From positions 1 to 32,625 of the forward strand of contig CACPON010000002.1 of NCBI GenBank assembly GCA_902635645.1: a DNA stretch of 32,625 nt, written 5' to 3'. Below, piece by piece: positions 13,428-31,425 of this stretch (the stretch's first letter is position 1; every line of letters starts with the position of its first letter). Under the pieces are notes generated by a model. That model was not told the origin of the DNA, made no database searches, and worked only from the letters and a program-made list of their open reading frames with translations. The DNA is from an uncultured SAR86 cluster bacterium (GTDB lineage Bacteria; Pseudomonadota; Gammaproteobacteria; Magnimaribacterales; D2472). The translations under genes were made by a program, and so were the position numbers.

Positions 13428-13430
13428 ATT

Positions 13431-17550: not shown

Positions 17551-19959
17551 TTAGAAATTATATTTTACGCTAAAACCTTGAGTTTTTGGTTTCATCATAA
17601 ATACAGCAAAGTTACCGCCGGCTACAGGACTTGGCGATGTTACTAATCTCTCAAATAGCTGATCAGTACCATTTTTAATCCAATAAGCGACCTCCCACTG
17701 ATCATTAGACCAAGCAACCTTTGCATTAAGATTTTCTCTATCTCTTTTCTCTTTATATGAAGCAGGCAAAGTTGCTAATGCAGGTGATGTTGAATAGTTA
17801 GAGGTAACTTCCATCTCATCATCATAAGAATAATCAATACGTGTATGAACTTGTCCGTTGCCTAAAGACATGAAATGAGAAAGGCCAACATTGTATGCCA
17901 TCTTAGGAGTTAATCTAACAGCGGCATTGGTTGATATGTCTGCATCGTCATCATCTAATTTCATGTAACCAAGATTCATAACCAAGCTTTGTGAAAATTT
18001 ATGAATAACATTCAGATCAAGACCAAGTCTTTTTGCAGGTATTGTAGAATTATAAACAGCCGTACCAGTTCCGCTTGGAACCTGTAAAACACCCTGAAGA
18101 TTATCAGTTTCCATATTAAACACTGTTGCATTAAATTGGGTTTTGCCCTCATTAATTCTTGATTTAATACCTACTTCGAAATTGCTTGATTCCTCATCTT
18201 TATATTCTCTTGGGTAACTATCGTCACCGCCGGTAGAATTAAATCCACCTGATTTAAACCCTGTTGCATATGAGGTATAAACCATAACATCATCAGCGAG
18301 ATCTTTTTGAAGACTAATAGAATATGTTGTTGAATTCTTTTCTCTTTTGAACTCGTCATCTACCGGATTCATAAATGCGTTTAAAGGCCATGCTGCTGCA
18401 ACATTTTGTCTAGGAATTGTAGCCCCAGCTAATGCTGGGTTTCCAAGTGCCGCTGCTATGCCTGGACTTAGAGTCATTGTGCCCTCTAATATAGTCCCAG
18501 CATACAGATCAGCTTCCTTAGTCTCATCACTAACTCTAAGGCCAATGGTTAATCTTAAGGTATCACTAATATGATTAGTTGCAGATCCAAAAATAGCCAA
18601 TAAAGAATCATCCCATTTCATATCGTTTTCAATTCGATCACCACTATTAACAAAAGCAACTAGTCCTCCAGTAGCCTGAGCTTGGGCTACCAATGCTTGA
18701 AGTTGTGATTGAGGAGCTAATCCAGCCTGAACAGCTTGTGTTAATTGAGCAATGCTTGCATTTAGTCCTGCCATTACAGCAGCCATAGTTGGATCCCAAT
18801 CAGCACCTATGGAAACAGTTTTATCGCCTCTTTCATAAAGGTCACTGGTATAATGAAACAAGCCTACTAAATATTCCCAGTTACCAATCATGTCTGAAGC
18901 AAATCTAATTTCTGTTGATAATGAGCTTCCTCCAATATTTCTGTCAGAATTAGCCATATCAATAGAGCTAAAGTCAGCATCTACTCCTTTGTAAAAGTCA
19001 TATTTATTTCTTGAAATAATTGTTGTAAGCGTTCCTTTTTCTAAATCATCATCTATTTTTATGCTTGTTAATGATGAATCTAAATCAAACTGAGGCCTAT
19101 CAGTGGCTGAAAAAATAAAGTCAGTTGTATCATTATTTTGAAGAGTTTTTCCAGTAACCGATGCTCCGGCTAACAATACAGGATTATTAGGCTGAGAATC
19201 AGCTGCACAACAGTTACCGTTTTTAGATGTGTCTGTATGAGTGAAAACAACAGAGCGAGTATCACTCGGGTTAAAGTATAACTTAAGAGACATAGTCAAA
19301 TCGTCTTCATTATTTGCTGTTGAATTATCGGCTACATTCTTCATCCAACCATCAGCTTCATTCTTGTTAAATGAAAATCTCATTGCTGAAGTATCACTTA
19401 GGGTTTTTGAGATGCCTCCGGTTATTCTTTCTTGATTGTAATCACCAGACTCTATTTCTATGAATCCCTCATCATCACCAATAACTGGAGATTTTGTAAC
19501 AATGTTAACTACGCCAGCATTAGCATTTTTACCATACAAAGTACCCTGAGGACCTTGAAGAACCTCTACTCTTGCAATATCTGTAAGATCGTTTAAACCC
19601 AAACCTGTTCTATTTAGATATACACCATCAACAATAATAGCAACGCCTGCTTCCAATGAAGTATCTGATTGACTTGAACCAACACCTCTAATTCTCATTG
19701 AGGACTGAAATGGATCAGTATTATAGTTTGTACTCAAGGTAGGAATTCTTGCTGCAACATCTCTCATAGTATCAATGTTTAAACTGTCAATTTGATCTGA
19801 TGTTAGAACATCAAGTGAAATTGGCACGTCTTGAGCGCTAGCATCCTTTTTTGTAGCAGATACTATTACCTCTTCAATTCCTTCTGAATCTTGTGCGATT
19901 ATACTAAAGGGTGTTAGAAGTACACCAAAAAATAACATAAGATTAAATAAATTTTTCAT
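17551..19959 (-). CDS. TonB-dependent outer membrane receptor
   Basis: An 802-residue beta-barrel receptor for energised uptake across the outer membrane. The ATG at 19957-19959 is preferred over one 24 bases upstream because AAGGGGGA sits 8 bases before it and the protein then begins with a clean signal peptide (MKNLFNLMLFFGVLLTPFSIIAQ). A TonB-box-like IEEVIVSATKK follows, then the plug with DVPISLDVLTSDQI, MRIRGVG, VEVLQGPQGTLYGKNANAGVVNIVTK, and the barrel ending in SVKYNF with a terminal Phe. The plug style is that of marine carbon-substrate receptors rather than a named siderophore type. The substrate is unknown. LysR and the catabolic operon are next to it. Confidence 0.93.
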   Translation of the reverse strand: MKNLFNLMLFFGVLLTPFSIIAQDSEGIEEVIVSATKKDASAQDVPISLDVLTSDQIDSLNIDTMRDVAARIPTLSTNYNTDPFQSSMRIRGVGSSQSDTSLEAGVAIIVDGVYLNRTGLGLNDLTDIARVEVLQGPQGTLYGKNANAGVVNIVTKSPVIGDDEGFIEIESGDYNQERITGGISKTLSDTSAMRFSFNKNEADGWMKNVADNSTANNEDDLTMSLKLYFNPSDTRSVVFTHTDTSKNGNCCAADSQPNNPVLLAGASVTGKTLQNNDTTDFIFSATDRPQFDLDSSLTSIKIDDDLEKGTLTTIISRNKYDFYKGVDADFSSIDMANSDRNIGGSSLSTEIRFASDMIGNWEYLVGLFHYTSDLYERGDKTVSIGADWDPTMAAVMAGLNASIAQLTQAVQAGLAPQSQLQALVAQAQATGGLVAFVNSGDRIENDMKWDDSLLAIFGSATNHISDTLRLTIGLRVSDETKEADLYAGTILEGTMTLSPGIAAALGNPALAGATIPRQNVAAAWPLNAFMNPVDDEFKREKNSTTYSISLQKDLADDVMVYTSYATGFKSGGFNSTGGDDSYPREYKDEESSNFEVGIKSRINEGKTQFNATVFNMETDNLQGVLQVPSGTGTAVYNSTIPAKRLGLDLNVIHKFSQSLVMNLGYMKLDDDDADISTNAAVRLTPKMAYNVGLSHFMSLGNGQVHTRIDYSYDDEMEVTSNYSTSPALATLPASYKEKRDRENLNAKVAWSNDQWEVAYWIKNGTDQLFERLVTSPSPVAGGNFAVFMMKPKTQGFSVKYNF

Positions 19960-20001
19960 TATAAAAGTCCCCCTTATAGACATTAATAATTAGATATTAA
20001 A

Positions 20002-20083: not shown

Positions 20084-20977
20084 TTAGTTCTTTTTTAGAT
20101 TGCTGGCTGTTACAAAGTTCGTACCCTGAAGTAGCTCTTCTATATTTTCTAAAATAGTTTGTTTTACAGCTCGAACAATAGGGTTAGATCGAGAGAGTTC
20201 GTGTTGAATAAGATAGAATCCAATTTTGAATGAATATTCTTCTTTATTAAATGGCACTAATCTTGGGTCATTATCGCCATCTAAATCTGTTAGAAAGGTA
20301 ACGCCGTTACCCGAGGATACAAAAGCATGAGCATCTTGGTATGAATTTGAAGAAATTATTATATTTGGATTTTTAAAAAAAGTATTTACTACAAAATTTG
20401 TATCTGCTTGATCTTTTCTTTTGTATGTTACCCACTCAAAATCATCAATATTTTTAACCTTCTTTAAATATTCTTTGCTGCCATATACATGCATATTTAA
20501 TTCACCAAGCAAAGTTGCTATCGAATCTTCGGGCGGGTTGGTAGTTCCAATGAATCCGATATCATACATTTCTGTAGTCAGTTCACTGGAGTCAGAATGA
20601 TTCATTATATGGATATTTAAGTTAGGGAAATTTTTTCGAAGTTTGGTAATAATATTAGTCATATTTTTACCTCCCTCACCTTGTTTATAAATAACCAATT
20701 TGCCATCCATTAAATCAGGATTAGGTATAAACCTCTCTTTTAGAGCTGAGATTTTAAAATCAATTTTTTGAACCTCTTTATATAAATCTTTACCGTGGAC
20801 TGTTAATGCATACCCTGAATTTCTTCTTTCAAATAATTTGATGGCTAATTCTTTTTCAAGTTTTTCAATTTTCCTAGACACGGTGGAATGATTGACACCC
20901 ATTTCTTTAGCACAGCCACTCAAAGTGCCATGATTTGCACATGAAATAAAATATTCTAAATTTCCCCAATCCAGCAT
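20084..20977 (-). CDS. LysR family transcriptional regulator
   Basis: A 297-residue LysR-type regulator. The N-terminal winged helix-turn-helix (about 6-60) reads LEYFISCANHGTLSGCAKEM, then VNHSTVSRKIEKLEKEL and KLFERRNSGYALT, a standard LysR DNA-binding layout. A linker helix and a two-lobed effector-binding domain follow (about 90-290). The effector is unknown. It is transcribed away from the ten-gene operon starting at 21121, the usual position of a LysR gene relative to its target, and it also adjoins the TonB receptor. It may control both. The ATG at 20975-20977 faces the 143-base divergent promoter region. Confidence 0.9.
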   Translation of the reverse strand: MLDWGNLEYFISCANHGTLSGCAKEMGVNHSTVSRKIEKLEKELAIKLFERRNSGYALTVHGKDLYKEVQKIDFKISALKERFIPNPDLMDGKLVIYKQGEGGKNMTNIITKLRKNFPNLNIHIMNHSDSSELTTEMYDIGFIGTTNPPEDSIATLLGELNMHVYGSKEYLKKVKNIDDFEWVTYKRKDQADTNFVVNTFFKNPNIIISSNSYQDAHAFVSSGNGVTFLTDLDGDNDPRLVPFNKEEYSFKIGFYLIQHELSRSNPIVRAVKQTILENIEELLQGTNFVTASNLKKN

Positions 20978-21120: not shown

Positions 21121-22188
21121 ATGAAAGTTCTAAGAACACCGGATTCATGCTTTGAGGATATCAAAGATTATCCTTTTGAGCCGGTTTATACAAATATAGA
21201 AACTAAAGATGGAACTATCGTAAGAGTTCATCATATTGATGAAGGCCCTAAAGATGGTCCCATTTTGCTTGCTATGCATGGCCAACCGGTATGGAGCTAT
21301 CTTTATGCCAGAATGATTCCATTTCTAACCGAAGCAGGAATAAGAGTTATAGCTCCTGACTTAGTTGGTTACGGTAAGTCAGATAAGCCAGCTGCCAGAG
21401 AAGACTATTCTTATCAAAATCAAGTTGATTGGATGGGAGAGTGGTTAAAGAAAAATGATTTTCAAAATTTAACTTTTTTTGGACAAGATTGGGGAGGATT
21501 AATTGGTCTTAGAATGGTGGCAGCAGACCCCGATAGATTTACAAAAATTGCTATGGGTAATACAGGTCTTCCGTATAACCCTGATGCTCCTCAAGAAGTT
21601 ATAGATGAAGTAAATGAGTTTAGGGCATCGAATAAAAAAATAAGTTTCTTTGGAATGACTAAAGAAGTTAGCAAAATGGATAAAAATAAACATATGGCAA
21701 CAAAATTTATGTACTGGCAGAAATTTACCTGGGATTCAAAAAATCTTCCAATTGGTTTAATTAACTCCTTTCAAATGGAGAGTCAGTTTAGGAAATCTCC
21801 GGTCAAAGCCTATATTCATATTCTGTTACAAAAAATAGGACTAGAAAAAATATCACCGTTCTATACTGATTTGATGAAAGCTTATGAAGCACCCTTCCCC
21901 AATCCATCATATAAAATGGGTCCTAGAGCAATGCCAAGCCAAGTTCCAATGATACCTGATCAGTCTTTAGATGCTCAGAGAAAAGCAAGAGAGTTTTTTA
22001 AAACTTCCGAAAAACCTTTTTTAGCTGTTTTTGCAGGCAATGATCCTGTGACAAATGGTGCTGAGAGAGATGTTCTGAGAATGGCTCCAAATGCAAAAAG
22101 TGCTCCTCATATTGGTGGAGGTCATTTTTTTCAATGGACTAAAGCAGAACCACTATCTAAGATATTAATTGATTTTATTAAAGGGTAA
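21121..22188 (+). CDS. Haloalkane dehalogenase-like alpha/beta hydrolase
   Basis: A 355-residue alpha/beta hydrolase resembling haloalkane dehalogenases, which replace a carbon-bound halogen with hydroxyl. The oxyanion motif HGQPVWSYLYA (53-63) resembles HGEPTWSYLYR of DhlA-type enzymes. The nucleophile elbow GQDWGG gives D123, with W124 as the expected first halide-binding residue. The acid D308 lies in FAGNDPVTNG and the base H335 in GGGHFFQW, so the triad is complete. The nucleophile-to-acid distance is about 50 residues longer than in DhlA, meaning an enlarged cap domain with Trp199 and Trp204 as candidates for the second halide-binding residue. It is the first gene of a ten-gene operon. 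Halide release is predicted, not shown; a related hydrolase activity remains possible. Confidence 0.8.
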   Translation: MKVLRTPDSCFEDIKDYPFEPVYTNIETKDGTIVRVHHIDEGPKDGPILLAMHGQPVWSYLYARMIPFLTEAGIRVIAPDLVGYGKSDKPAAREDYSYQNQVDWMGEWLKKNDFQNLTFFGQDWGGLIGLRMVAADPDRFTKIAMGNTGLPYNPDAPQEVIDEVNEFRASNKKISFFGMTKEVSKMDKNKHMATKFMYWQKFTWDSKNLPIGLINSFQMESQFRKSPVKAYIHILLQKIGLEKISPFYTDLMKAYEAPFPNPSYKMGPRAMPSQVPMIPDQSLDAQRKAREFFKTSEKPFLAVFAGNDPVTNGAERDVLRMAPNAKSAPHIGGGHFFQWTKAEPLSKILIDFIKG

Positions 22189-22194
22189 TTTTTT

Positions 22195-22878
22195 ATGATT
22201 CATTTATACACAGCTTCGACACCAAACGGACATAAAGTCTCATGCTTATTGGAGGCATTAGAGATGCCCTACGAAGTTCATTCAGTAAACCTTGCTGAAG
22301 ATGAGCAAAAAAAGCCAGAATTTTTAAAGATTAGTCCTAATGGCAGAATTCCAGCTATTGTTGATACTGATAATGATGACCTTTCGATCTTTGAGTCTGG
22401 TGCAATAATGCTTTATCTTGCAGAAAAGGCAGGAAAGCTTATCCCAAATGATGATAAAGGAAGAGCAAAAGTAACTGAATGGCTTATGTTCCAAATGGGT
22501 GGTATCGGTCCAATGATGGGTCAAGCAAATGTTTTTTTTAGATACTTTCCAGAAAAAATTCAACCAGCTATAGATAGATATCAAAATGAATCAAGGCGTC
22601 TTTTTGAAGTTCTAGATACTCATTTGGCTGACAATGAATGGCTCGCAGGAGAATATTCAATTGCAGACATTGCTAATTGGTGCTGGGTTAGAACCCATAA
22701 TTGGTCAGGTGTATCAATTGATGGACTAGTCCATCTAGAAGATTGGAAAAATAGAATGTATGAGCAGCCAGGGATGATTAAGGGAACTAAAGTTCCAGTA
22801 GATAGAGAAAGTATTTTAAAAAATGAAGAAGACGAAAAGGAATTTATAAAAAACGCACAAAAAATGGTAAAAAAATAA
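22195..22878 (+). CDS. Glutathione S-transferase, Nu class (YfcG/YghU-like)
   Basis: A 227-residue GST. The N-terminal thioredoxin fold opens [20 protein letters not shown], aligning with E. coli YfcG: T9 and N11 are the glutathione-contacting residues of that class. The cis-Pro and glutathione-binding [13 protein letters not shown] motif follow at about 60-75. The helical C-terminal domain contains [11 protein letters not shown] and [10 protein letters not shown], again as in YfcG. Nu-class enzymes reduce disulfides and peroxides and bind glutathione disulfide. The gene follows the dehalogenase-like gene by 6 bases. Here it may handle a glutathione conjugate or recycle glutathione for the neighbouring GSTs (inference). 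Confidence 0.88.
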
Positions 22879-22889
22879 GAAGCAATCTT

Positions 22890-23570
22890 ATGTTAAAAAT
22901 TCACTTTACAGCAGGTACTCGAGCAGGAAGAGTAGTTTGGCTTCTTGAAGAGCTAGGTCTTGATTATGATATTAATATCATGCCTTTTACCAAAAAAGGT
23001 CTTAAGTCACCAGAACATAGGACGCGTCATGCTCTTGGAAGGGTTCCAGTTCTAGAAGATGGTGATATATCAATATTTGAATCTGGTGCCATCATTCAAT
23101 ATATTCTTGAACGACATAAAGACGGAGGTTTAAAGCCTGATGTAAGCTCTAAAGAGTTTCCATATTATCTGCAATGGTTTCATTACTGTGAGGGAATGGT
23201 TATGCCTCCTATGAATCAAATTGTAGTTCAAGCTATTCTATTATCATCCAATAGAAGAGATGAAAATGTCTTAAAACAAGCTAAAAATCTATTAACTAAA
23301 TCATTAGGGCCTGTAAACAAGAATCTTGAGGGCAAAGATTATTTGATTGGTGATTTTTCTGCTGCTGATCTAATGCTTGGTCACTCATGTTTTATGGCTA
23401 ACAGATTAGGATGTGTTCCTGATGAAATGGAGAACATTAAAAATTATGTAGCTCGCATTGAAGCAAGACCTGCATTTCAAAAAGCTATATCAATGGGTGA
23501 AACATTTTTCCATAAAATTTATCGGTGGTGGTCATTTCGTTCAATGAAGAAAAGGACAGTTACTATCTAA
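22890..23570 (+). CDS. Glutathione S-transferase, tandem copy 1
   Basis: A 226-residue GST. The N-terminal domain has TRAGRVVWLLEELGLDY (10-26), typical of bacterial beta/theta-like GSTs, cis-Pro in RVPVLEDGD (P53), and the glutathione-binding E64-S65 in SIFESGAII. The C-terminal domain has FSAADLMLGH, the usual N-capping SxAD motif. Over its first 204 residues it is about 88 percent identical (24 differences) to the next gene. It differs by a 22-residue C-terminal extension that is aromatic then basic (TFFHKIYRWWSFRS then KKR), possibly a membrane-binding tail. It lies 11 bases after the Nu-class GST gene. Substrate unknown. Confidence 0.88.
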   Translation: MLKIHFTAGTRAGRVVWLLEELGLDYDINIMPFTKKGLKSPEHRTRHALGRVPVLEDGDISIFESGAIIQYILERHKDGGLKPDVSSKEFPYYLQWFHYCEGMVMPPMNQIVVQAILLSSNRRDENVLKQAKNLLTKSLGPVNKNLEGKDYLIGDFSAADLMLGHSCFMANRLGCVPDEMENIKNYVARIEARPAFQKAISMGETFFHKIYRWWSFRSMKKRTVTI

Positions 23571-23622
23571 TGTATCAATTAATTTTATAGAAGAGTGATT
23601 TAATAGAAACAAGGAGAATACT

Positions 23623-24237
23623 ATGTTAAAAGTTCATTTTACACCAGGTACTAGGGCTGGAAGAGTGGTTTGGCTACTAGAAGAATTAGGGCTAGATTAT
23701 GATGTAAATATCATGCCTTTTACAAAAGAAGGTTTGAAATCACCGGAACATAGATCTAGACATGCACTGGGCAGAGTGCCAGTTCTTGAGGATGGTGATA
23801 TTTCTATATTTGAATCTGGAGCCATCATTCAATATATCCTTGAGCGTCATAAAGATGGTGGACTTAAACCGAATTCAGATTCTGAAGAGTTTCCATATTA
23901 TCTGCAATGGTTTCATTACTGTGAGGGCATGGTCATGCCTCCAATGAATCAGGTCGTAGTTCAAACAATTCTTTTACCGCCGGATAGAAGAGATGAGAAT
24001 GTTTTAAAGCAAGCACAAAACCTAATAACTAAATCTCTTGGGCCAGTTAATGAAAACCTTGCAGATAAAGATTACTTAGTTGGTAATTTTTCCGCTGCTG
24101 ATCTAATGCTTGGCCACTCATGTTTTATGGCTAATAGATTAGGATGTGTTCCTGACGAAATGGAGCACATTAAAAATTATGTAGCCCGAATTGAAGCACG
24201 ACCAGCATTTCAAAAAGCTATAACCTTAGGAGAATAA
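23623..24237 (+). CDS. Glutathione S-transferase, tandem copy 2
   Basis: A 204-residue GST, paralogue of the preceding gene, with the same TRAGRVVWLLEELGLDY opening, RVPVLEDGD with cis-Pro53, FESGAII glutathione site and FSAADLMLGH motif. Substitutions cluster in two places: around residues 84-88 (domain linker) and around 117-120 (LSSN to LPPD), near the likely hydrophobic substrate pocket. This suggests altered specificity rather than simple dosage. It lacks the C-terminal tail of copy 1. AAGGAG lies 8 bases before the ATG. The next gene starts one base after its TAA. Confidence 0.88.
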   Translation: MLKVHFTPGTRAGRVVWLLEELGLDYDVNIMPFTKEGLKSPEHRSRHALGRVPVLEDGDISIFESGAIIQYILERHKDGGLKPNSDSEEFPYYLQWFHYCEGMVMPPMNQVVVQTILLPPDRRDENVLKQAQNLITKSLGPVNENLADKDYLVGNFSAADLMLGHSCFMANRLGCVPDEMEHIKNYVARIEARPAFQKAITLGE

Positions 24238-24238
24238 A

Positions 24239-24652
24239 ATGAAATATAAAAATAGCGTTCATCCTACCAAAGAACAAATGGAGGGATTTCTTGAAGGTGA
24301 CAATGAAAAACCTATCGCCATGATTAATCTTTTGAAGTTTAAAGAAAAAGCTGAATACGAGGACGGTCGAGATACTGACCTAACTGGCGAGCAAGCATAT
24401 GCCATATATAGTGAAGAGGTTATTGAACATTTAAAAAAAGTCGGTGGCAAAATATCTTTTGGCGGATCTATAAATCGCCTAATGCTTGGAGAAGTGGAAG
24501 AGCTTTGGGATAAAACGTTTATTGCTAAATATCCTAGTAAAAAAGCAATGCTCAAAATGATTACAGATCCTGACTATCTAGAAAGCAACAAACACAGAGT
24601 GGCAGGACTTGCTGGACAGCTTAATATAGAGGTTGAGGAATATAAATTTTGA
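24239..24652 (+). CDS. DUF1330-like dimeric alpha/beta-barrel protein
   Basis: A 137-residue small protein. The segment PIAMINLLKFKEKAEY, then YAIYSEEVIEHLKKVGGKISFGG, then FIAKYPSKKAMLKMITDPDYLE matches the strand-helix-strand pattern and the YPS-x-x-A-x-x-M motif of the DUF1330/ferredoxin-like dimeric barrel group. Members are often found beside catabolic enzymes and some bind or isomerise small organics; no reaction is established. It is tightly packed in the operon: one base after the GST stop, and its TGA overlaps the start of the next gene (TTGA). Confidence 0.75.
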   Translation: MKYKNSVHPTKEQMEGFLEGDNEKPIAMINLLKFKEKAEYEDGRDTDLTGEQAYAIYSEEVIEHLKKVGGKISFGGSINRLMLGEVEELWDKTFIAKYPSKKAMLKMITDPDYLESNKHRVAGLAGQLNIEVEEYKF

Positions 24653-25755
24653 GGCAATTACAAACATTAAAGAGTGATCTTTCAAAAACCAGAATCGTTG
24701 AAACAAAAAACTCTGATATTCAAGAAGAAGAAATTTCAGTATCAATAGAAAGTTTTGCTTTCACTTCAAACAATGTAACGTATGGGGTAGCAGGAGACAC
24801 GATAGGTTATTGGCAATTCTTTAAAACAACTGAAGATGCTAATAATGAATGGGGCTGCATACCAGTATGGGGATTTGCAAAAATTATTAAATCAAATGTA
24901 GAGGAATTAAATGTTGGAGAAAGATTATTTGGATATTTTCCTCCAGGCGATATCTTAAATTTAAAGCCTATCAAAGTTACAAATCAAGGATTTGTAGATG
25001 GCAAAGAACATCGTATAGATCTACCAGCGACATATAACAACTATTTAAGATTGTCTGGGGAAGTTAATTACGATAACTCATTAGATGACATTAGATCATT
25101 ATTATTTCCATTGCACATAACATCTTTTTGTATATGTGATGCATTGAAAGATGGGGGCTATTTCGGTGCTGATCAAATTATTATAGTTAGTGCATCAAGT
25201 AAGACTGCGATTGGTGTTGCTCAGGGGCTTCAAGAAGCTTCTGGTGCTCCATCAATATTAGGCCTTACTTCTAACAAGAATCTAGATTTTGTTAAAAACT
25301 TAGATTGTTATGATGAAGTGATTACATATGATTGTCTATTAGATATAAATTTTAATCTTAAGTCTGTAATGATTGATATGGCGGGAAGCCGCGAGATTCT
25401 GGGCACTCTTCATGGGTCACTTGGTGACAAAATGCTTAAATGCCTAACAGTTGGGATGACTCATTGGGATAATGAGGTTACTGCTGAAGATGCTCTGGGT
25501 CAGGCCATGCTTAGAGAAAGAACAGAATTCTTTTTTGCTCCAGCTCATATTCAAAAACGAGTAAAAGATTGGGGTTATGAAGGCTATAACCAAAAGATAA
25601 ATGAATTTATGAAAACTAGATCTAATCAAAGCACTGATTGGATGCAAGTGAAAAAAATTATTGGCCTTGAAGATTTTATATCTATGTATGAGAAATTTGT
25701 AGGTGGAGATATAAATCCAAACGAAGGAATCATTGTGGAGCTAGGTGATGGCTAA
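24649..25755 (+). CDS. DUF2855 family protein, medium-chain-reductase-like
   Basis: A 368-residue protein of the DUF2855 family, distantly like quinone-oxidoreductase-type medium-chain reductases. Family features: the opening SDLSKTRIVE, SFAFTSNNVTYGVAGDTIGYW, IPVWGFAKI, GERLFGYFPPG, and a nucleotide-binding-like stretch IIIVSASSKTAIGVAQGLQ in the middle (about 178-196) followed by LGLTSNKN. The GxGxxG of true reductases is replaced by SASSKTA, so cofactor use is uncertain. The start is TTG overlapping the previous stop as TTGA, with GAGG about 10 bases upstream; coupling by reinitiation is likely. Role unknown; perhaps a carbonyl or alkene reductase in the pathway (inference). Confidence 0.78.
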   Translation: MRQLQTLKSDLSKTRIVETKNSDIQEEEISVSIESFAFTSNNVTYGVAGDTIGYWQFFKTTEDANNEWGCIPVWGFAKIIKSNVEELNVGERLFGYFPPGDILNLKPIKVTNQGFVDGKEHRIDLPATYNNYLRLSGEVNYDNSLDDIRSLLFPLHITSFCICDALKDGGYFGADQIIIVSASSKTAIGVAQGLQEASGAPSILGLTSNKNLDFVKNLDCYDEVITYDCLLDINFNLKSVMIDMAGSREILGTLHGSLGDKMLKCLTVGMTHWDNEVTAEDALGQAMLRERTEFFFAPAHIQKRVKDWGYEGYNQKINEFMKTRSNQSTDWMQVKKIIGLEDFISMYEKFVGGDINPNEGIIVELGDG

Positions 25756-27382
25756 AAAACTCATGGTTTCTTTAGTGGTATTAATAGTTTCTGGTTTTGT
25801 TGCCTGGGAATATAAAGTAAATATTCTTGTATGGGCTATACCCAAAATATCAAATGTTACCATTCAAGAAAATATTCCAACCACTTGGTCTAAGGGCCCA
25901 GATACACCAGTTGATGATAATAGACCAAATATAATTTTAATCCTGGCCGATGATATGGGCTATAACGATATATCTATTCATAATGGTGGAGCGGCTGATG
26001 GAACCCTTCAAACTAAAAATATTGATGCATTAGCAAAAAGTGGAATTCTATTTACTAGAGGCTATGCTGCTAATGCAACTTGTGCTCCATCTAGAGCATC
26101 GATAATGACTGGGAAATACCCAACTAGATTTGGCTATGAATTTACCCCAATACCTTCTTTAGGTAGAACAGTTCTGGGTTGGCTTGCCGAAGAAGACAAC
26201 TTTGAATTGAAACAAAGGATTGACCGAGAGGTGGTTTCAAAAATGCCACCTTTTATGGAACAGGGAATGCCAACAGAACAAATAACCATAGCAGAAGTTT
26301 TAAAAGATGCTGGATATTACACAGCTCATATTGGAAAATGGCACCTTGGTCATGCTTATGGCATGGATCCACTGAATCAAGGCTTTCAAGACTCTCTAGG
26401 TTTAGTTGGGCCCCTCTATTTGCCTGAGAATCATCCTGATGTTGTAAACGCAAAGTTTGATACAAGAATAGATAAAATGGTATGGAGTAATGGTCAATAT
26501 TCCGCAACTTTTAATGAAGGTGAGATATTTGCGCCTGATAAATATGTTACAGATTACTATACTGATGAAGCATTAAAAGTAATTGAAAATAATAGAAATA
26601 GACCTTTCTTTTTATATCTCAGTCATTGGGCAATTCATAATCCACTGCAGGCACTAAGAAGCGATTATGAACAAATGAGTCATATGCACGGTCATAATCT
26701 TCAAGTTTACTCAGGAATGATAAATGCTTTAGATAGAAGTGTTGGAAAGATTATTGAAAAGCTCAAAGAATTAGATATATATGGTAAGACTTTAATCATA
26801 TTTACAAGCGATAATGGCGGGGCTAATTACATTGAATTAGAGGATATTAATAAACCCTATAGAGGATGGAAGATAAGCTTTTTTGAAGGAGGGATAAGAG
26901 TTCCTTATATTGTTAGCTGGCCTGATGAAATCAACCCTGGAAAAAAATCAGATAATGCTGTTCATCATTTTGATATTTTTCCTACTATTGCAAAGGCTGC
27001 GGGTATTGAATTATCTAATAAAATAGATGGTGTAGATTTACTACCCTTCATAAATAATAATAGCTCTTCTAAGCCTCACAAGACACTTTTTTGGCGATCT
27101 GGAAATCATCAAGCAGTTCTTCATGAAAACTGGAAATATATAATTAGTAAAAATGAAAATTTTAGATGGTTGTTTGATACTTCAGTGGATCCAACAGAAA
27201 AAAATAATCTACTTCAAAGTCATCCTTTAATAGTAAAGGAAATCGAAGAGCTTTTAGCCAAGTTTAATTCAGAACAAAAAAATCCTTTATTCCCTTCATC
27301 ATATGATGCTCCAATAATGATAGATAAATATGATGGGAAAGAATACGAAGAAGGTGACGAATATATTTATTGGTCTAACTAA
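25748..27382 (+). CDS. Membrane-anchored arylsulfatase (Cys type)
   Basis: A type I sulfatase of 544 residues. The motif CAPSRASIMTGKYP has the Cys (residue 112) that is converted to formylglycine, followed by the required Pro and Arg. Metal-binding Asp pair LILADDMGYND (68-69), GKWHLG and the FTSDNGG motif complete the active site. An N-terminal hydrophobic helix (about 3-20) is a signal or anchor, placing the enzyme in the periplasm. ATG 25748 is preferred to an adjoining GTG at 25745, with GGAG 7 bases upstream; it overlaps the previous gene by 8 bases. The maturation enzyme is not in the window. It would release sulfate from an organic sulfate ester; the substrate is not evident. Confidence 0.9.
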   Translation: MAKKLMVSLVVLIVSGFVAWEYKVNILVWAIPKISNVTIQENIPTTWSKGPDTPVDDNRPNIILILADDMGYNDISIHNGGAADGTLQTKNIDALAKSGILFTRGYAANATCAPSRASIMTGKYPTRFGYEFTPIPSLGRTVLGWLAEEDNFELKQRIDREVVSKMPPFMEQGMPTEQITIAEVLKDAGYYTAHIGKWHLGHAYGMDPLNQGFQDSLGLVGPLYLPENHPDVVNAKFDTRIDKMVWSNGQYSATFNEGEIFAPDKYVTDYYTDEALKVIENNRNRPFFLYLSHWAIHNPLQALRSDYEQMSHMHGHNLQVYSGMINALDRSVGKIIEKLKELDIYGKTLIIFTSDNGGANYIELEDINKPYRGWKISFFEGGIRVPYIVSWPDEINPGKKSDNAVHHFDIFPTIAKAAGIELSNKIDGVDLLPFINNNSSSKPHKTLFWRSGNHQAVLHENWKYIISKNENFRWLFDTSVDPTEKNNLLQSHPLIVKEIEELLAKFNSEQKNPLFPSSYDAPIMIDKYDGKEYEEGDEYIYWSN

Positions 27383-27412
27383 TAAATTATTCAAATAAAA
27401 ATAGGAGAAATA

Positions 27413-28450
27413 GTGAAAGAAAAAATAAAAGTTTTTGGGGTCCCTGCCTCACCTTATACACAGAAAATGATCTCTATTTTGAGGTATCGCCATATTGCCT
27501 ATGAAGTTTTCATGGGAGATGTTCCAGGAAGATTAAGCAGGCTAGAAGGAATAGAGCCACCAAAACCTGTTTTACTTCCTACTCTGCTTTTAGAAGATGA
27601 AAGTGGTAAATTAAAAGCAACTACTGATACCACCCCAATCATTAGAAGATTTGAAAACGAGTATCCAGATAGAAAATTATTACCTGAGGACCCTGCTTTA
27701 TCTTTCATAAATTATTTATTAGAAGATTTTGGAGATGAATGGGTTACTAAATATATGTTCCATTACAGATGGTATTTTGATGAGGATGCTGATAATGCAT
27801 CAACCATCCTTCCATTGAGTGATCTTGCTGTGAATTTGCCTGATGAAATACTAAAGGATGCAAAAAAATATGTTCATGATAGACAGACTGGAAGGTTATG
27901 GGTTGTAGGCTCAAATGATACAACAGCTGGTTTAATCAATGCTAGTTATAAAAGATTCCTAAAATTGATGGATGGTCATCTATCTATTAGTAAATTTCTT
28001 TTTGGTGAAAAGCCTTCTTCTGCTGATTTTGCTATCTATGGGCAATTAACTCAGCTCATTGGGTTTGAACCTACATCAAGAAAAATTGCGTATGATACTG
28101 CATTAAGGCTTGTTTCTTGGCAAGATGTAATGGCTGACTTGTCTGGTCATGATGTTGAGAATAGCAACTGGACTCCTCTTGAAGAAAGCCCTGATTCTTT
28201 AAAAGAAATCATGAAAGAGTTTGGCAGGATGTATGTTCCAGCTTTGCTTGCAAATGCAAATGCAATTATGAAGGGCGAGGAAACGTGGGAGACCGAAATT
28301 GATGGGTCTGTGTGGAAACAAAAAGCCTTTCCTTATCAAGCTAAATGTTTAAAGTGGATTAAAGAGGAGTTTGGTGCGCTTAATGAAAATGATCAGTCAA
28401 GAGTTAAAACTTTTCTTGATGGAACTGGGTGTGAAATATTATTAGGATAA
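27413..28450 (+). CDS. Long glutathione S-transferase-like protein
   Basis: A 345-residue protein with a GST N-terminal domain: IKVFGVPASPYTQKMISILRYRHIAYEV (5-32) is a thioredoxin fold with a SPYTQK active-site position, LLPTLLLED supplies the cis-Pro (about 56), and TTDTTPIIRRFE stands where glutathione is bound, with Thr instead of Ser. The C-terminal helical part is about 100 residues longer than normal and contains SSADFAIYGQL as the SxAD motif. The function is unknown; related long GSTs occur in marine and soil catabolic clusters. The start is GTG with AGGAG 5 bases upstream. It is 30 bases after the sulfatase, the second-largest gap in the operon. Confidence 0.8.
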   Translation: MKEKIKVFGVPASPYTQKMISILRYRHIAYEVFMGDVPGRLSRLEGIEPPKPVLLPTLLLEDESGKLKATTDTTPIIRRFENEYPDRKLLPEDPALSFINYLLEDFGDEWVTKYMFHYRWYFDEDADNASTILPLSDLAVNLPDEILKDAKKYVHDRQTGRLWVVGSNDTTAGLINASYKRFLKLMDGHLSISKFLFGEKPSSADFAIYGQLTQLIGFEPTSRKIAYDTALRLVSWQDVMADLSGHDVENSNWTPLEESPDSLKEIMKEFGRMYVPALLANANAIMKGEETWETEIDGSVWKQKAFPYQAKCLKWIKEEFGALNENDQSRVKTFLDGTGCEILLG

Positions 28451-28454
28451 AGAT

Positions 28455-29267
28455 ATGGAAATAAAAAATAAAAGAGTAGTAGTTACTGGTGCTGCTAGCG
28501 GGATTGGATATGCGCTGTGTGAAGAATTTCATACTAGCGGAGCTCAGTCTATTGTATGCGTAGATCTCAATGAAGACGGCACTAAGGAAATTGCAGAAAA
28601 AGTTAATGGCCTTGCGGTGACAGCTGATGTATCTAATGAACAAGACATAATTAATGTTATTGAAAAAGCTAATGAATATTCAGGAGGAATTGATATATTT
28701 TGCTCCAATGCTGGAATCGGTGGTACTCCTATGCTTTTAGAAACTACATCTGAAGAGTGGAATAATACTTGGGGAGTCAATGTAATGTCTCATGTACATG
28801 CAGCAAAACATGTTTTACCCCAAATGCTTGAAAGAGGAGAAGGTTATTTAATGAATACAGCATCAGCTGCAGGACTCTTATCTCAAATAGGTGCTGCTCA
28901 ATACGCTGTTACTAAATCAGCGGCTGTAAGTTTTGCTGAATGGGTAAAAATTACATATGGTCATAAAGGAATTGGCGTTTCATGTCTTTGCCCACAAGCA
29001 GTAAGAACCGCAATGACTGCTCAAGGCGCTGGAGTTGCTGGAGTGGATGGTATGCTCGAGCCAGATGTAGTCGCTAAAGATGTTTTAGATGCCATTGAGA
29101 ATGAAAGATTCTTAGTATTGCCTCATAAAGAAGTTGCTGAATATGTTCAAAGAAAAGGCAACGATAGAGATAGATGGATATCTGGCATGCAAAGATTACA
29201 AAAACAATTTGAAGAATTTTATCAAAGTTTAGCTGATCAAAATAAAGGAGAAAATGATGAAAACTAA
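28455..29267 (+). CDS. Short-chain dehydrogenase/reductase, NAD-type
   Basis: A 270-residue classical SDR. The cofactor motif is TGAASGIG (11-18), D37 at the end of the second strand favours NAD, and the SNAGIGG motif (84-90) and catalytic S137, Y150 and K154 (YAVTK) are all present. A Gly-Ala-rich active-site loop (about 192-204) and an acidic C-terminal tail follow. It probably oxidises an alcohol. In this operon the obvious candidate is the alcohol made by the dehalogenase-like hydrolase or the sulfatase (inference). It starts 4 bases after the GST-like gene and overlaps the next gene by 11 bases. Confidence 0.88.
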   Translation: MEIKNKRVVVTGAASGIGYALCEEFHTSGAQSIVCVDLNEDGTKEIAEKVNGLAVTADVSNEQDIINVIEKANEYSGGIDIFCSNAGIGGTPMLLETTSEEWNNTWGVNVMSHVHAAKHVLPQMLERGEGYLMNTASAAGLLSQIGAAQYAVTKSAAVSFAEWVKITYGHKGIGVSCLCPQAVRTAMTAQGAGVAGVDGMLEPDVVAKDVLDAIENERFLVLPHKEVAEYVQRKGNDRDRWISGMQRLQKQFEEFYQSLADQNKGENDEN

Positions 29268-30225
29268 AATAACAGAACTATTTGGTATTGAGCATCCAAT
29301 TATTCAAGGTGGCATGCATCATGTAGGATTTGCTGAACTTGCTGCAGCTGTTTCTAATGCAGGTGGGCTGGGAACTATTACTGGTTTAACTCAAGGTACG
29401 CCTGAAAAATTAGCAAATGAGATTGCAAGATGTAAGGAAATGACAGATAAGCCTTTTGCAGTAAATTTAACTTTTCTACCCTCTCTAACACCCCCGGATT
29501 ATCCTGGATTGATCAAAGAAATAATCGATGCAGGAGTGCCGGTAGTTGAAACTGCTGGAAGAAACCCTGCAGAATATTTACCTGCTCTCAAGGAAGCTGG
29601 AATAAAAGTTATTCATAAATGTACTTCTGTTAGACACTCTATAAAAGCTCAATCAATTGGTTGTGATGCTGTATCAGTTGATGGTTTTGAATGTGGTGGT
29701 CACCCTGGCGAAGATGATATTCCTAATTTTATTTTATTGCCTAGAGCTGCCGAAGAATTAGAAATTCCATTCGTGGCATCAGGTGGAATGGCTGACGGTA
29801 GAAGTTTGGTTGCTGCTATGGCACTTGGAGCAGAAGGAATGAATATGGGAACAAGGTTTATAGCAACACAAGATGCTCCAGTTCATCAAAATGTTAAAGA
29901 AGCTATTGTTAATGCAACAGAACTTGATACTAGATTGATTATGAGATCATTAACAAATACAGAAAGAGTTCTTAATAATGAAGCAGTAGAAAGACTGATG
30001 GAAAAAGAAAAAAGATTAGGCGATGATCTCAAGTTTGAAGATATTCTTGATGAAGTTGCTGGTGTTTACCCAAAAATTATGCATGAAGGAACCATGGAAG
30101 CAGGTGCTTGGTCTTGTGGAATGGTAGCTGGACTTGTTAATGACATCCCAACAGTCCAGGACTTAATAAATAATATTATGTCCCAGGCTGATGAGATTAT
30201 TAAATCAAGACTGCAAAATTTCTAA
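29257..30225 (+). CDS. Nitronate monooxygenase-like FMN enzyme
   Basis: A 322-residue TIM-barrel flavoprotein of the nitronate monooxygenase/enoyl-ACP reductase II family. FMN-binding motifs are PIIQGGMHHVG near the N-terminus, VKFVHK-like IKVIHKCTS, DGFECGGHPGED, VASGGMADGRS and GAEGMNMGTRF. The GGHPGED loop is typical of the nitronate monooxygenase branch rather than FabK. Two adjacent ATGs exist (29254 and 29257); the second fits AAGGAG better and gives the usual MKTKITELFGI opening. It could oxidise a nitronate with nitrite release or act as another FMN oxidoreductase; annotations in this family are often wrong. It is the last gene of the operon, with no clear terminator. Confidence 0.85.
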   Translation: MKTKITELFGIEHPIIQGGMHHVGFAELAAAVSNAGGLGTITGLTQGTPEKLANEIARCKEMTDKPFAVNLTFLPSLTPPDYPGLIKEIIDAGVPVVETAGRNPAEYLPALKEAGIKVIHKCTSVRHSIKAQSIGCDAVSVDGFECGGHPGEDDIPNFILLPRAAEELEIPFVASGGMADGRSLVAAMALGAEGMNMGTRFIATQDAPVHQNVKEAIVNATELDTRLIMRSLTNTERVLNNEAVERLMEKEKRLGDDLKFEDILDEVAGVYPKIMHEGTMEAGAWSCGMVAGLVNDIPTVQDLINNIMSQADEIIKSRLQNF

Positions 30226-30228
30226 AAA

Positions 30229-31425
30229 TTATTTTTTATAATTTGCAGCTTCTTCTGATCCGTCGGTTGCTGTACCTTTTGTGTAAGAATGAGCGCCCAT
30301 GCCTGCGAGGTCACCGTCTTTAACAATTAAATACGGCTCTCTAATTGGTTCTCCAGAAAAGAAACACTCGAGTATTTCTCTTACACCAGCAGCATACCTA
30401 GCTTGAGCAGATAATGATGTTCCAGATGTATGAGGAGTCATCCCATGATTAGGCATTGTTCTCCAAACATGATCATTAGGAGCTGGTTGCGGGAACCAAA
30501 CATCTCCAGCATAACCGCTTAACTGGCCAGATTCTAAAGCTCTTGCAATGGCATCTTTATCACAAATTTTTCCTCTAGCAGTGTTAACAATATAAGCACC
30601 GCGTTTCATTTTTGCGATCATCTCATCATTAAATAAGTGTTCTGTCTTTGGATGAAGTGGACAACTAATATTAACCACATCACAAACAGCAACTAAAGAT
30701 TCAACAGAATCATGATAAGTAAGATTAAGTTCTGCCTCGACCTCATCTGGTAATTTATGTATATCAAAGTAATGCAGATGAACATCAAAAGGTTTCATTT
30801 TTCTTAACATGTCGATACCTATTCTTCCTGCAGCTACAGTTCCTACATGCATACCCTCAACATCATATGATCTTTGAACAGCGTCAGCTATATTCCAACC
30901 ACCCTCATTAACTATTCTATGTTGATTGTGGTAATCCCTTACCATTGAAAGAATCATCATAACAATATGCTCTGCAACTGATCTCGAATTACAGTATGTC
31001 ACTTCCACAACATCTATGTTGTGGTCCATGGCACCTTGAAGATCAACGTGATCTGAACCAATTCCAGCAGTTATAGCCATCTTAAGATTTGGAGCGGTTT
31101 CCATCTTTTCACGAGTTAAATAATAAGGAAAGAATGGTTGAGATATAACGATATCAGCGTCAACTAATTCTCTATCTGCCTCACATCCTTCACCATCTTT
31201 ATCAGATGTAACTACCAATGTATGTCCAGCATCTTCAAGAAATTTTCTAAGACCCAATTCTCCTGAAACACATCCAAGTAATTCTCCTGGAGTAAAGTCA
31301 ATGCCTTTTGGAGAAGGCAATGTCATCCCATCTGGATACTTATCAATTTTTGGTAAATCGTCTCGTGCATACTTTTCGGGCATGCCAGTTTTTGGATCAT
31401 CGTATAAAACGCATAATACTTTCAT
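30229..31425 (-). CDS. fdh: NAD-dependent formate dehydrogenase
   Basis: A 398-residue D-isomer-specific 2-hydroxyacid dehydrogenase family member that oxidises formate to CO2 with NAD. It closely follows the methylotroph Pseudomonas sp. 101 enzyme as I remember it, with the same numbering: I122, N146, R284 (NTARGK) and H332 form the formate site, and D221 after the nucleotide-binding AAGRIG dictates NAD over NADP. The VLYDDP opening, CVSGELGLR, AYIVNTARGK, GYAGDVWFPQPAP and the SYTKG-(A)T-GSEEA end are hallmarks. The ATG is preceded by AAAGGGGGAG. It is convergent with the operon, 3 bases apart. Formate oxidation would supply NADH; it is cytoplasmic and metal-free. Confidence 0.96.
   Translation of the reverse strand: MKVLCVLYDDPKTGMPEKYARDDLPKIDKYPDGMTLPSPKGIDFTPGELLGCVSGELGLRKFLEDAGHTLVVTSDKDGEGCEADRELVDADIVISQPFFPYYLTREKMETAPNLKMAITAGIGSDHVDLQGAMDHNIDVVEVTYCNSRSVAEHIVMMILSMVRDYHNQHRIVNEGGWNIADAVQRSYDVEGMHVGTVAAGRIGIDMLRKMKPFDVHLHYFDIHKLPDEVEAELNLTYHDSVESLVAVCDVVNISCPLHPKTEHLFNDEMIAKMKRGAYIVNTARGKICDKDAIARALESGQLSGYAGDVWFPQPAPNDHVWRTMPNHGMTPHTSGTSLSAQARYAAGVREILECFFSGEPIREPYLIVKDGDLAGMGAHSYTKGTATDGSEEAANYKK

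Follow-up and report, generated by a model that had tools for sequence, protein, structure and literature searches.

The ten genes that run along the plus strand of the window (the whole stretch of 32,625 nucleotides analysed here) are an operon-like, co-conserved SAR86 cluster, modular and rearranging, and not the oddity of a single genome. The first gene encodes, by sequence and modelled fold, a subfamily-I haloalkane dehalogenase (HLD-I) with an enlarged cap. Tentatively, and at somewhat less than an even chance, we read the run as part of a modular cluster, spread across SAR86, that would serve the catabolism or detoxification of bulky lipid-like organohalogens and would be opened by this large-cap HLD.

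Organization of the gene run

An earlier note on this DNA had described ten plus-strand genes behind a LysR regulator and near a TonB receptor, and the list of open reading frames agrees with it (Table 1). The ten frames extend from 21121 to 30225 with intergenic gaps of, in order, 6, 11, 52, 1, -4, -11, 30, 4 and -14 bases, which bears out the four touching or overlapping junctions counted before; the last gap would be -11 if the NMO gene started at its second ATG (29257), as its relative in locus L044 does. The divergent LysR gene is 143 bases from the run and the receptor gene lies past it. The family names given earlier were likewise upheld by the profile matches (HLD, GSTs, DUF1330, DUF2855, sulfatase, adh_short, NMO).

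Table 1. Features in and around the ten-gene run. Occurrence is given as the number of SAR86 loci, among 43 picked for DUF2855 or HLD, in which the gene lies near the large-cap HLD; g1 is the genus of the window.
Feature	Coordinates	Strand	Basis	Occurrence
ACAD, acyl-CoA dehydrogenase family; outside the run	16279..17493	+	Pfam	
TonB-dependent receptor	17551..19983	-		7/43, all g1
LysR-type regulator, divergent from the run	20084..20977	-		7/43, all g1
Large-cap HLD-I (D123, W124, W199, D308, H335; HGQP at 53-56)	21121..22188	+	profile, model, tree	
GSTnu, YfcG/YghU-like glutathione transferase	22195..22878	+	profiles, structures	29/43
GSTa, tandem paralogue of GSTb, C-terminal extension	22890..23570	+	dN, dS vs GSTb	GSTa or GSTb, 31/43
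GSTb, glutathione transferase	23623..24237	+	profiles	GSTa or GSTb, 31/43
DUF1330 protein	24239..24652	+	profile, alignment A4	40/43
DUF2855, predicted MDR double-bond-reductase fold, TTG start	24649..25755	+	profile, model	27/43
Sulfatase, Cys-type (CAPSR), N-terminal hydrophobic segment, GTG start; optional	25745..27382	+	profile	22/43
GST345, 345-aa GST-like protein, GTG start	27413..28450	+	profiles	34/43
Short-chain dehydrogenase/reductase (SDR)	28455..29267	+	profiles	16/43
NMO/FabK-like FMN enzyme	29254..30225	+	profiles, structures	23/43
NAD-dependent formate dehydrogenase (FDH)	30229..31425	-	NF005750, 667 bits vs cut-off 329	7/43, all g1

Scanning for sigma-70 promoters and terminators was uninformative when compared with shuffled sequences (43 promoter-like sites vs 61.5 expected, 10 terminator-like sites vs 9.2 expected), therefore the ten genes would share a single transcript on the grounds of spacing and conservation alone. 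The cluster genes are under purifying selection (dN/dS 0-0.14 for the window genes against orthologues in two comparisons, G098 and G089).

The large-cap haloalkane dehalogenase

The HLD scored 325.5 bits against NF002043, over the curated cut-off of 265, and its structure model (pLDDT 94.6) predicts an alpha/beta-hydrolase core with a helical cap, nearest to HLD-I structures. The pentad (Asp, His, Asp and two Trp) is intact in 63/63 rows of alignment A2. W199, which we take to be the counterpart of DhlA Trp175, was aligned to the FxxW Trp of DccA and DmrA via short, weak segments of 2.5-3.2 bits. The cap region of the window protein holds about 60 extra residues; rows of the large-cap clade are 334-363 aa long, and compared with the canonical enzyme of L100, the D123-W199 spacing is 76 residues against 40 and the W199-D308 spacing 109 against 86. 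HGQP stands in the place of HGEP, this position being Q in 64/64 large-cap rows and E in 11/12 others, and in the tree of these rows (64 vs 12) the large-cap enzymes form one clade (100/100). Since the cap is larger than usual, although the usual size is not strictly defining, the enzyme was filed as a variant of HLD-I and not as a typical member. We infer that the large-cap HLD dehalogenates its substrate.

The accompanying enzymes

In three of the glutathione transferases the N- and C-domain matches were both over the cut-off; in GST345 the N-domain match was over it and the C-domain match under it. The nearest solved structure of GSTnu, presumably a class Nu enzyme as its name says, is 4eci (1.7e-88); YfcG, 3gx0, matched with 7e-51. 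GSTa and GSTb differ with a dS of about 1.0 and a dN of 0.067. The DUF1330 profile was barely over its cut-off (23.7 vs 23), and the SDR matched adh_short with 141 bits. By profile (PF03060, 200.7 bits) the last gene belongs to the NMO family, with PA1024 (2gjl/6e2a, E 1.8e-109) as its nearest solved relative; its nitronate or quinone activity is putative.

DUF2855 (profile match of 305.5 bits) gave a model with a pLDDT of 81, residues 45-54 and 270-287 being of low confidence, which matched CurA with a Z of 23 and LTB4 12-hydroxydehydrogenase and plant double-bond reductases with about 22. An MDR fold, similar to prostaglandin and double-bond reductases, is thus predicted by the model, with putative NADPH binding and ene-reductase activity. 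The literature search found no paper on DUF2855, to which a likely fold class is now given.

The sulfatase matched PF00884 with 178 bits, and the CAPSR read in its sequence fits the CxPSR motif. A formylglycine-generating enzyme (FGE, PF03781) was found neither in the window's own genome (66% complete) nor in 25 of 26 other SAR86 genomes, among them all 14 genomes that have a sulfatase near the HLD; it was found in the remaining one. Likewise, anSME (TIGR03942) was over the cut-off in 0/26 of these other SAR86 genomes. The sulfatase may be matured by another route. The halogenated and/or sulfated substrate proposed earlier is still conjectural, and its sulfated half is weakened because of this lack of FGE. 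The degradation of chlorosulfolipids by HLD and sulfatase, an attractive idea, was rejected, the sulfatase being present in just 22/43 loci and FGE being found in neither the incomplete own genome nor 25 of the 26 others; the literature search found no paper titled for bacterial chlorosulfolipid degradation.

Conservation of the neighbourhood

The linkage count used 43 SAR86 loci out of 50 stretches picked for DUF2855 or HLD; L041, L048, L051, L058, L059, L061 and L100 were left out since they lack the large-cap HLD. DUF1330 is the steadiest partner (Table 1). The count of sulfatases pools two sulfatase types. An MBL-fold protein lies near the HLD in 25 of the 43 loci, a DsbA-fold GSTk in 8 and a DJ-1 family gene in 4. 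The order and content of the cluster differ by genus, with members gained and lost, and the same families re-associate in differing contexts, in four SAR86 families as well as in L206, L210 and L222. Lack of conserved gene order had been named as a refutation of the operon; this refutation fails, as the orthologues remain clustered in further genera of SAR86. The description as a ten-gene unit holds for this genome, but as a local edition: the order-wide partners NMO2, MBL and P163 are absent from the run, ACAD lies outside it, and sulfatase and SDR are optional.

ACAD was within 9.5 kb of the HLD in 11/43 SAR86 loci (4/4 in family f4), which may be an undercount because many stretches extend just about 5 kb upstream. 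With about 70% identity it also stands beside DUF1330, GST345 and sulfatase in L206, L210 and L222, and it is probably a cluster-associated gene beyond the run. The LysR, TonB and FDH flanks are confined to the genus of the window. Control genes were counted on HLD-centred loci, since the DUF2855-centred stretches stop short of them; within the best 80 of 584 relatives, PR was found in 4/39, SSF in 4/39 and TolC in 2/39 SAR86-like loci.

Distribution of the large-cap HLD

The full-length enzyme is present in 122/203 SAR86 genomes and, by hand count, in 21/22 genera, the orthologues in other genera having mostly 65-75% identity to the window HLD. Among the matches listed, relatives occur also in Porticoccaceae, where the HLD loci have no cluster partners, Halieaceae, Myxococcota and Acidobacteriota. 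The loci of relatives are the best 80 of 584; those counted as outside SAR86, 41 in number, comprise L193-L235 minus L217 and L229 (HLD identity <=63%, none titled SAR86). L161, L168, L169, L172, L173, L185, L188, L217 and L236 were set aside as SAR86-like despite other titles (68-93% HLD identity). Titles such as Flavobacteriaceae, Nitrospinota, PS1 and Woeseia probably reflect mis-binning.

Within these best 80 relatives, DUF1330 lies near the large-cap HLD in 12/41 loci outside SAR86, including Halieaceae and Myxococcota, GSTa/b in 2/41, and GSTnu, DUF2855, NMO, NMO2, MBL and P163 in 0/41. Near canonical HLD-I outside SAR86 (9 stretches, 8 genomes) DUF1330 was found in 0/9 loci, a small contrast to 12/41. 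Two of these canonical loci, L113 and L115, carry a SacchDH-like gene. SDR relatives with 51% identity are beside the HLD in L224 and L227. Among 369 class genomes, GST345 was matched in 2 genomes outside SAR86 (E <= 1e-30); matches to DUF2855 there came, apart from the own genome, from 11 genomes, in 10 of them over the cut-off; no cluster partners were found in the 4 GST345 stretches (two genomes) and 11 DUF2855 stretches (G386 not among them) outside SAR86, except GST genes in L157.

The HLD is separable from the cluster. DUF2855 is carried by 45 SAR86 genomes, 10 of which, all incomplete, have no large-cap HLD, and in G035 (L059) and G046 (L048) the cluster is present with the HLD cleanly missing inside, by two clean deletions. 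Conversely, the HLD stands without partners in HTCC2143 (L195) and also in G150 (L094). HTCC2143, which we take to be a cultured strain, is a possible host for study; the literature search found no paper on a dehalogenase of HTCC2143/BD1-7.

Proposed function and alternatives

In the proposed route the HLD would hydrolyse a carbon-halogen bond first, D123 attacking and H335 and D308 activating water, and the halide would be held by W124 and W199 and perhaps Q55; the enlarged cap would admit a substrate bulkier than the classical haloalkanes. The SDR would oxidise the resulting alcohol to a carbonyl, DUF2855 or the FMN enzyme would reduce a conjugated double bond if there is one, the glutathione transferases would take up electrophilic intermediates, and the chain would enter beta-oxidation via ACAD. 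Where present, the sulfatase would strip a sulfate ester beforehand, in the periplasm. The order of these steps is suggested by the enzyme classes only. Likely substrates would be lipid-like organohalogens of algae or animals, e.g. halogenated fatty acids or oxylipins; for SAR86, the accessible part of PMC11582366 speaks of lipids, steroids and aromatics as substrates, and of tfdA-like genes and numerous GSTs. Several observations count against the organohalogen reading: SDR, sulfatase and NMO are variable members, HGQP departs from HGEP, the cluster occurs without the HLD in L048 and L059, the HLD occurs without partners in HTCC2143 and G150, and, within the best 80 of 584 relatives, GSTnu, DUF2855, NMO, NMO2, MBL and P163 are seen in 0/41 loci outside SAR86.

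That the HLD-like protein does something other than dehalogenation in the cell, its clade having shifted to hydrolysis of epoxides, lactones or C-C bonds in the degradation of steroid-like or polycyclic compounds, seems somewhat unlikely. Such a shift would suit the steroid and aromatic degradation proposed for SAR86 (PMC11582366, in its accessible part), the Q of all large-cap rows and the extra residues of the cap, and OleB, turned to beta-lactone decarboxylation, offers a precedent (PMC10503415, same limit). However, both halide-site Trp and the whole pentad are invariant (63/63), which functional drift need not keep, and the closest solved structures are HLD-I dehalogenases. Quite improbable is a glutathione-based defence against electrophiles and oxidants, with HLD and sulfatase as passengers, in which GSTs and DUF1330, together with DUF2855 and the FMN enzyme, would deal with quinones and reactive carbonyls that stem from algae or arise through light. 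Such a defence leaves unexplained why no partner accompanies the HLD as constantly as DUF1330 (40/43 loci, picked for DUF2855 or HLD), which stays with it also outside SAR86, where GSTnu does so in none and GSTa/b in two of the 41 loci from the best 80 of 584 relatives, although the four GST-type genes of the window, the occasional GSTk and DJ-1 genes, the nearness of NMO to PA1024, the match of the DUF2855 fold to alkenal/enone reductases and the retention of the cluster by G035 and G046 would all fit it.

About as improbable is a hot spot of small genomes at which catabolic genes gather independently of each other and serve no single pathway. The variation of order and content by genus, the partnerless HLD of Porticoccaceae, the 10/45 DUF2855 genomes without HLD and the fact that most SAR86 partners are never beside it in the 41 loci elsewhere (within the best 80 of 584 relatives) speak for it; against it, renewed association of these gene families is seen across four SAR86 families and at L206, L210 and L222, junctions overlap in the window, the LysR, TonB and FDH flanks stay within genus g1 (7/43 each), and the control genes PR, SSF and TolC are infrequent near the HLD (at the counts given above).

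If the HLD dehalogenates, an abundant and hardly cultured lineage would be linked to organohalogen turnover through testable enzymes. SAR86 accounts for about 2-6% of the microbes in the global ocean community, and an isolate, another possible host for study, has been reported (both in the accessible part of PMC11582366, where no word begins with 'halo' and 'dehalogenase' is absent). The accessible part of PMC8371827 does not contain 'dehalogen', and in that of PMC13390413 the HLD assigned belongs to Marinobacter. The SAR86 genomes holding the large-cap HLD were assembled at 0.7-1.8 Mb; the retention of a dehalogenase-type gene in 21/22 genera of such small genomes hints at a steady, ubiquitous substrate. 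A bolder version of the organohalogen reading, which we consider unlikely, is an order-wide SAR86 pathway whose first enzyme belongs to a large-cap HLD-I clade of its own, its halide site being made of the second Trp of HLD-I and the amide of Gln55 at the place of the HLD-II/III Asn, and that acts on halogenated, sometimes sulfated lipids or oxylipins. If true, SAR86 would remove organohalogens from the sea on a large scale, as a sink that has gone unrecognised. The chlorosulfolipid idea survives solely within this version.

Comparison with known systems

The lindane (lin) pathway uses the same broad enzyme classes, HLD, SDR (LinC) and GST (LinD), as the cluster, and the earlier note had seen a partial parallel. 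This parallel fails: the hydrolase is of the HLD-I type (Z 41 to DmrA/DccA vs 30 to LinB) and the NMO-type enzyme is nearest to PA1024. Membership in a lindane-type pathway was accordingly rejected, with LinB, the sole lin enzyme compared, ranking below the HLD-I enzymes. OleA is of the thiolase and OleC of the AMP-ligase family; the profile search found neither family among the ten genes, and an OleABCD-like route was likewise rejected. According to the accessible part of PMC10503415, LinB is an HLD-II, and OleB, a putative HLD-III with beta-lactone decarboxylase activity, is an HLD-like hydrolase in non-dehalogenase chemistry. A halide residue of HLD-III is Asn (N63 in DhmeA) in the same source, whereas the window HLD has Gln55 and the second Trp instead.

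Among the MDR enzymes, LTB4 12-hydroxydehydrogenase/15-oxo-prostaglandin reductase, CurA and the plant double-bond reductases match the DUF2855 model over 296-319 residues (Z 21-23), with 8-16% identity. The literature search found no paper on a haloalkane dehalogenase with Glu56. The window HLD shares the fold, the nucleophile Asp, the Trp-Trp halide site and the Asp/His pair with the HLD-I enzymes DmrA (4mj3), DccA (5esr), DpcA (6f9o) and DhlA (1b6g), the first three being 43-44% identical to it in the structural alignment; it differs from these solved enzymes, which have about 300 aa and HGEP, by its 355 aa and its HGQP, and from the canonical enzyme of L100 by its longer D123-W199-D308 spacings.

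The ten-gene run in the window

The earlier note had described a run of ten plus-strand genes, and all of them were found at the coordinates it claimed, with spacings of 6, 11, 52, 1, -4, -11, 30, 4 and -14 bases (the last becomes -11 if the start is placed at 29257). The family names given there were also borne out; DUF1330 was barely above the cut-off, and in the case of the fourth 'GST', a 345 aa protein (GST345), the N-domain match exceeded the cut-off and the C-domain match was sub-threshold.

Features in the window and in locus L081
Feature	Location	Positions	Strand	Remark
Ten-gene run	window	21121-30225	+	
HLD, haloalkane-dehalogenase-like	window	21121-22188	+	first gene
GSTa/GSTb	window	22890-24237	+	tandem pair
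Sulfatase	window	25745-27382	+	Cys-type, hydrophobic stretch at N-terminus
NAD-dependent formate dehydrogenase	window	30229-31425		convergent with the operon
Proteorhodopsin-like gene	window	12115-12861		upstream, recognised by eye
Ceramidase-family membrane protein (PF05875)	L081, genus g9	13369-14343	-	convergent with the cluster

The window spans bases 1-32625 of contig C2; the source genome measures 0.89 Mb and is 66% complete. The orthologous operon genes gave dN/dS values of 0-0.14 against genomes G098 and G089, where the sulfatase compared is a paralogue (49% identity), and noisy values, up to 0.55 from few changes, against the near-identical G096. For the GSTa/GSTb pair dS was about 1.0 and dN/dS about 0.07; G093 and G098 carry a single copy. 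The formate dehydrogenase match scored 667 bits (cut-off 329); this gene is 97-100% identical in the stretches read from g1, the genus of the window, and does not adjoin the cluster in other genera.

Composition of the cluster in SAR86

The comparison covered 49 stretches, each 10-20 kb long and taken around a DUF2855 or HLD gene; two came from the window's own contig and 47 from 46 other genomes. A large-cap HLD lay in the stretch in 43 SAR86 genomes, the window's among them, and genes at most 9.5 kb from it with at least 40% identity were counted as its partners. DUF1330 was present in 40, GST345 in 34, GSTa/b in 31, GSTnu in 29 and DUF2855 in 27, a share inflated because the stretches were picked for DUF2855 or HLD. 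They were followed by MBL, a metallo-beta-lactamase-fold protein (25), the membrane protein P163 (25), NMO (23), the sulfatase (22), a second NMO, NMO2 (20), SDR (16), P126 (12) and ACAD (11). The LysR, TonB and formate dehydrogenase flanks occurred in 7 genomes each, every one in the window's genus, and the window's PR (proteorhodopsin-like), SSF and TolC genes recurred in 4, 4 and 2 of 39 HLD-centred SAR86-like loci among the best 80 of 584 relatives. Thus the cluster keeps its own members together more than its surroundings.

The window's genus represents one edition, with NMO2, MBL and P163 in 1, 1 and 0 of 9 genomes and the run closing with SDR and NMO. In the 43-genome count GSTnu was confined to family f1, and GSTa/b to f1 and one f2 genome. 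The PF05875 match of the Ceramidase-family gene was tested in L081 only; L040 has a 316 aa gene of similar size and look at the same position. In G104 (L052) HLD, GSTnu, GST345 and DUF2855 are each broken by stops or frame changes, which reflects assembly error or decay.

By sequence no solved relative of DUF2855 was found. Its structural model (pLDDT 81, weak in two stretches) has the shape of an MDR enzyme; CurA is the nearest match at Z 23.0, with leukotriene/prostaglandin and plant double-bond reductases at Z about 22. NMO was closest to PA1024, GSTnu was YfcG-like, and the MBL protein of locus L044 was closest to PNGM-1 and an arylsulfatase, 8gyg; P163 and P126 of the same locus matched no Pfam family. 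FGE was found neither in the 66% complete own genome nor in any of the 14 of 26 other SAR86 genomes with a sulfatase near HLD; one of the 26 (G150) had it, and none had anSME above the cut-off. Cys-type sulfatases of this and other SAR86 genomes thus lack a recognisable maturase in these searches.

Distribution of HLD within and outside SAR86

Among 203 genomes of the order, HLD matched at E <= 1e-40 in 171, and in 39 of the 40 best genomes, paralogues counted in. By hand count from the same listing, 120 genomes including the own one held a full-length copy at 64-100% identity, two (G190 and G197) one at 53-54%, and 8 further genomes copies that were partial or broken. Genomes with a full-length copy represent 21 of the 22 genera; the exception, g3, has an HLD of about 295 aa, next to which the single stretch read shows a GST345 gene.

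Loci L082, L083, L085, L088 and L090 carry further HLD-type paralogues. One kind, in open frames of 366-406 aa, has a hydrophobic segment at the N-terminus and in some cases adjoins the cluster; the other kind is HGNP-type HLDs of about 285-342 aa. In genus g22 (L096-L098) some HLDs of family f4 are 78-79% identical to that of the window, against 64-71% in f2/f3, which hints at transfer within SAR86.

HLD is associated with the cluster, though either can occur without the other. No large-cap HLD was found in 10 of 45 DUF2855-bearing SAR86 genomes, all ten incomplete (G017, G024, G029, G030, G031, G032, G035, G038, G046 and G051); in G035 and G046 it is cleanly absent within the cluster. G150 has HLD and none of the partners.

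In a class-level search of 369 genomes, 4 of them SAR86, HLD matched at E <= 1e-50 in 8 non-SAR86 genomes, always by its first part only and in open frames of about 300-350 aa; none of their 9 neighbourhoods contained DUF1330. The 4 SAR86 genomes were the only ones with close DUF1330 relatives (at least 58%); below these, the best match reached 42%. A pattern scan of a species-genome collection gave, among the best 80 of 584 relatives, full-length large-cap HLDs under the record titles Porticoccaceae, SAR92, HTCC2143, Halieaceae, Luminiphilus and K189A, and in Myxococcota and Acidobacteriota records. At the 41 loci of these best 80 with at most 63% HLD identity, DUF1330 was found 12 times, GST345, window-type ACAD, sulfatase and SacchDH 4 times each, and GSTa/b and SDR twice each; GSTnu, DUF2855, NMO, NMO2, MBL and P163 were found at none. 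In L206, L210 (Halieaceae) and L222 genes for TetR, a sulfatase, DUF1330 and ACAD lie beside HLD together with two GST345-like genes, and in L224 and L227 (Myxococcota) an SDR relative at 51% lies near it. The Porticoccaceae-type loci had none of these partners, apart from a DJ-1-type gene in L197, and in HTCC2143 the HLD neighbours read as groES/groEL.

Possible role of the cluster

Observation covers the anatomy and conservation of the cluster only. Judged from the enzyme classes, our best explanation, held tentatively, is a route degrading a bulky lipid-like organohalogen: HLD would remove the halide, the resulting alcohol would be oxidised, a double bond reduced and glutathione used in a capture step, with beta-oxidation as the end of the route. 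An HLD-fold enzyme with a different activity is rather unlikely, and a GSH-based defence cluster is improbable. A loose accretion of genes seems slightly less probable still; it is favoured by the ten DUF2855 genomes without a large-cap HLD and by the absence of DUF2855, NMO, MBL and P163 beside HLD at the 41 loci outside SAR86 (among the best 80 of 584), and for these reasons we weighed accretion higher and organohalogen degradation lower. A study of SAR86 (PMC11582366) reports the degradation of lipids, steroids and aromatics, together with tfdA-like genes and numerous GSTs; no word in its main text begins with 'halo'. No earlier report of this cluster was found in the literature searched, a scope outside which Dupont et al. 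2012 lies.

Comparison of HLD with known haloalkane dehalogenases

Residues D123, W124, W199, D308 and H335 were kept in 63 of 63 aligned large-cap proteins, W199 being aligned to the FxxW tryptophan of DccA and DmrA via short segments of 2.5-3.2 bits. The D123-W199 spacing is 74-85 residues in the clade and 40 in the canonical L100; that of W199-D308 is 105-109 in 54 rows, 87-90 in nine and 86 in L100. The HGxP residue is Gln (HGQP) in all 64 large-cap rows and Glu (HGEP) in 11 of 12 other HLDs. In a tree of 76 rows one branch with 100/100 support split off these 64. According to excerpts of PMC10503415, it is chiefly the pentad and the cap that set HLD subfamilies apart, and the HLD-II/III pentad includes a halide-binding Asn, N63 in DhmeA; in DadB it is N37 (excerpt of PMC3938430). 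Since pentad and cap are the main differences, the changed cap and HGxP residue make a meaningful variant. Gln at the HGxP place together with two Trp would form a hybrid halide site; the halide-binding Asn of HLD-II/III occupies the HGxP position.

The AlphaFold2 model of HLD was confident (pLDDT 94.6, pTM 0.93), with about 60 of 355 residues unaligned to solved structures. Its closest solved structures were of subfamily HLD-I, namely DmrA (Z 41.4), DccA (41.2), DpcA (40.4) and DhlA (36.7), whereas LinB, with Z 30.4, ranked below them.
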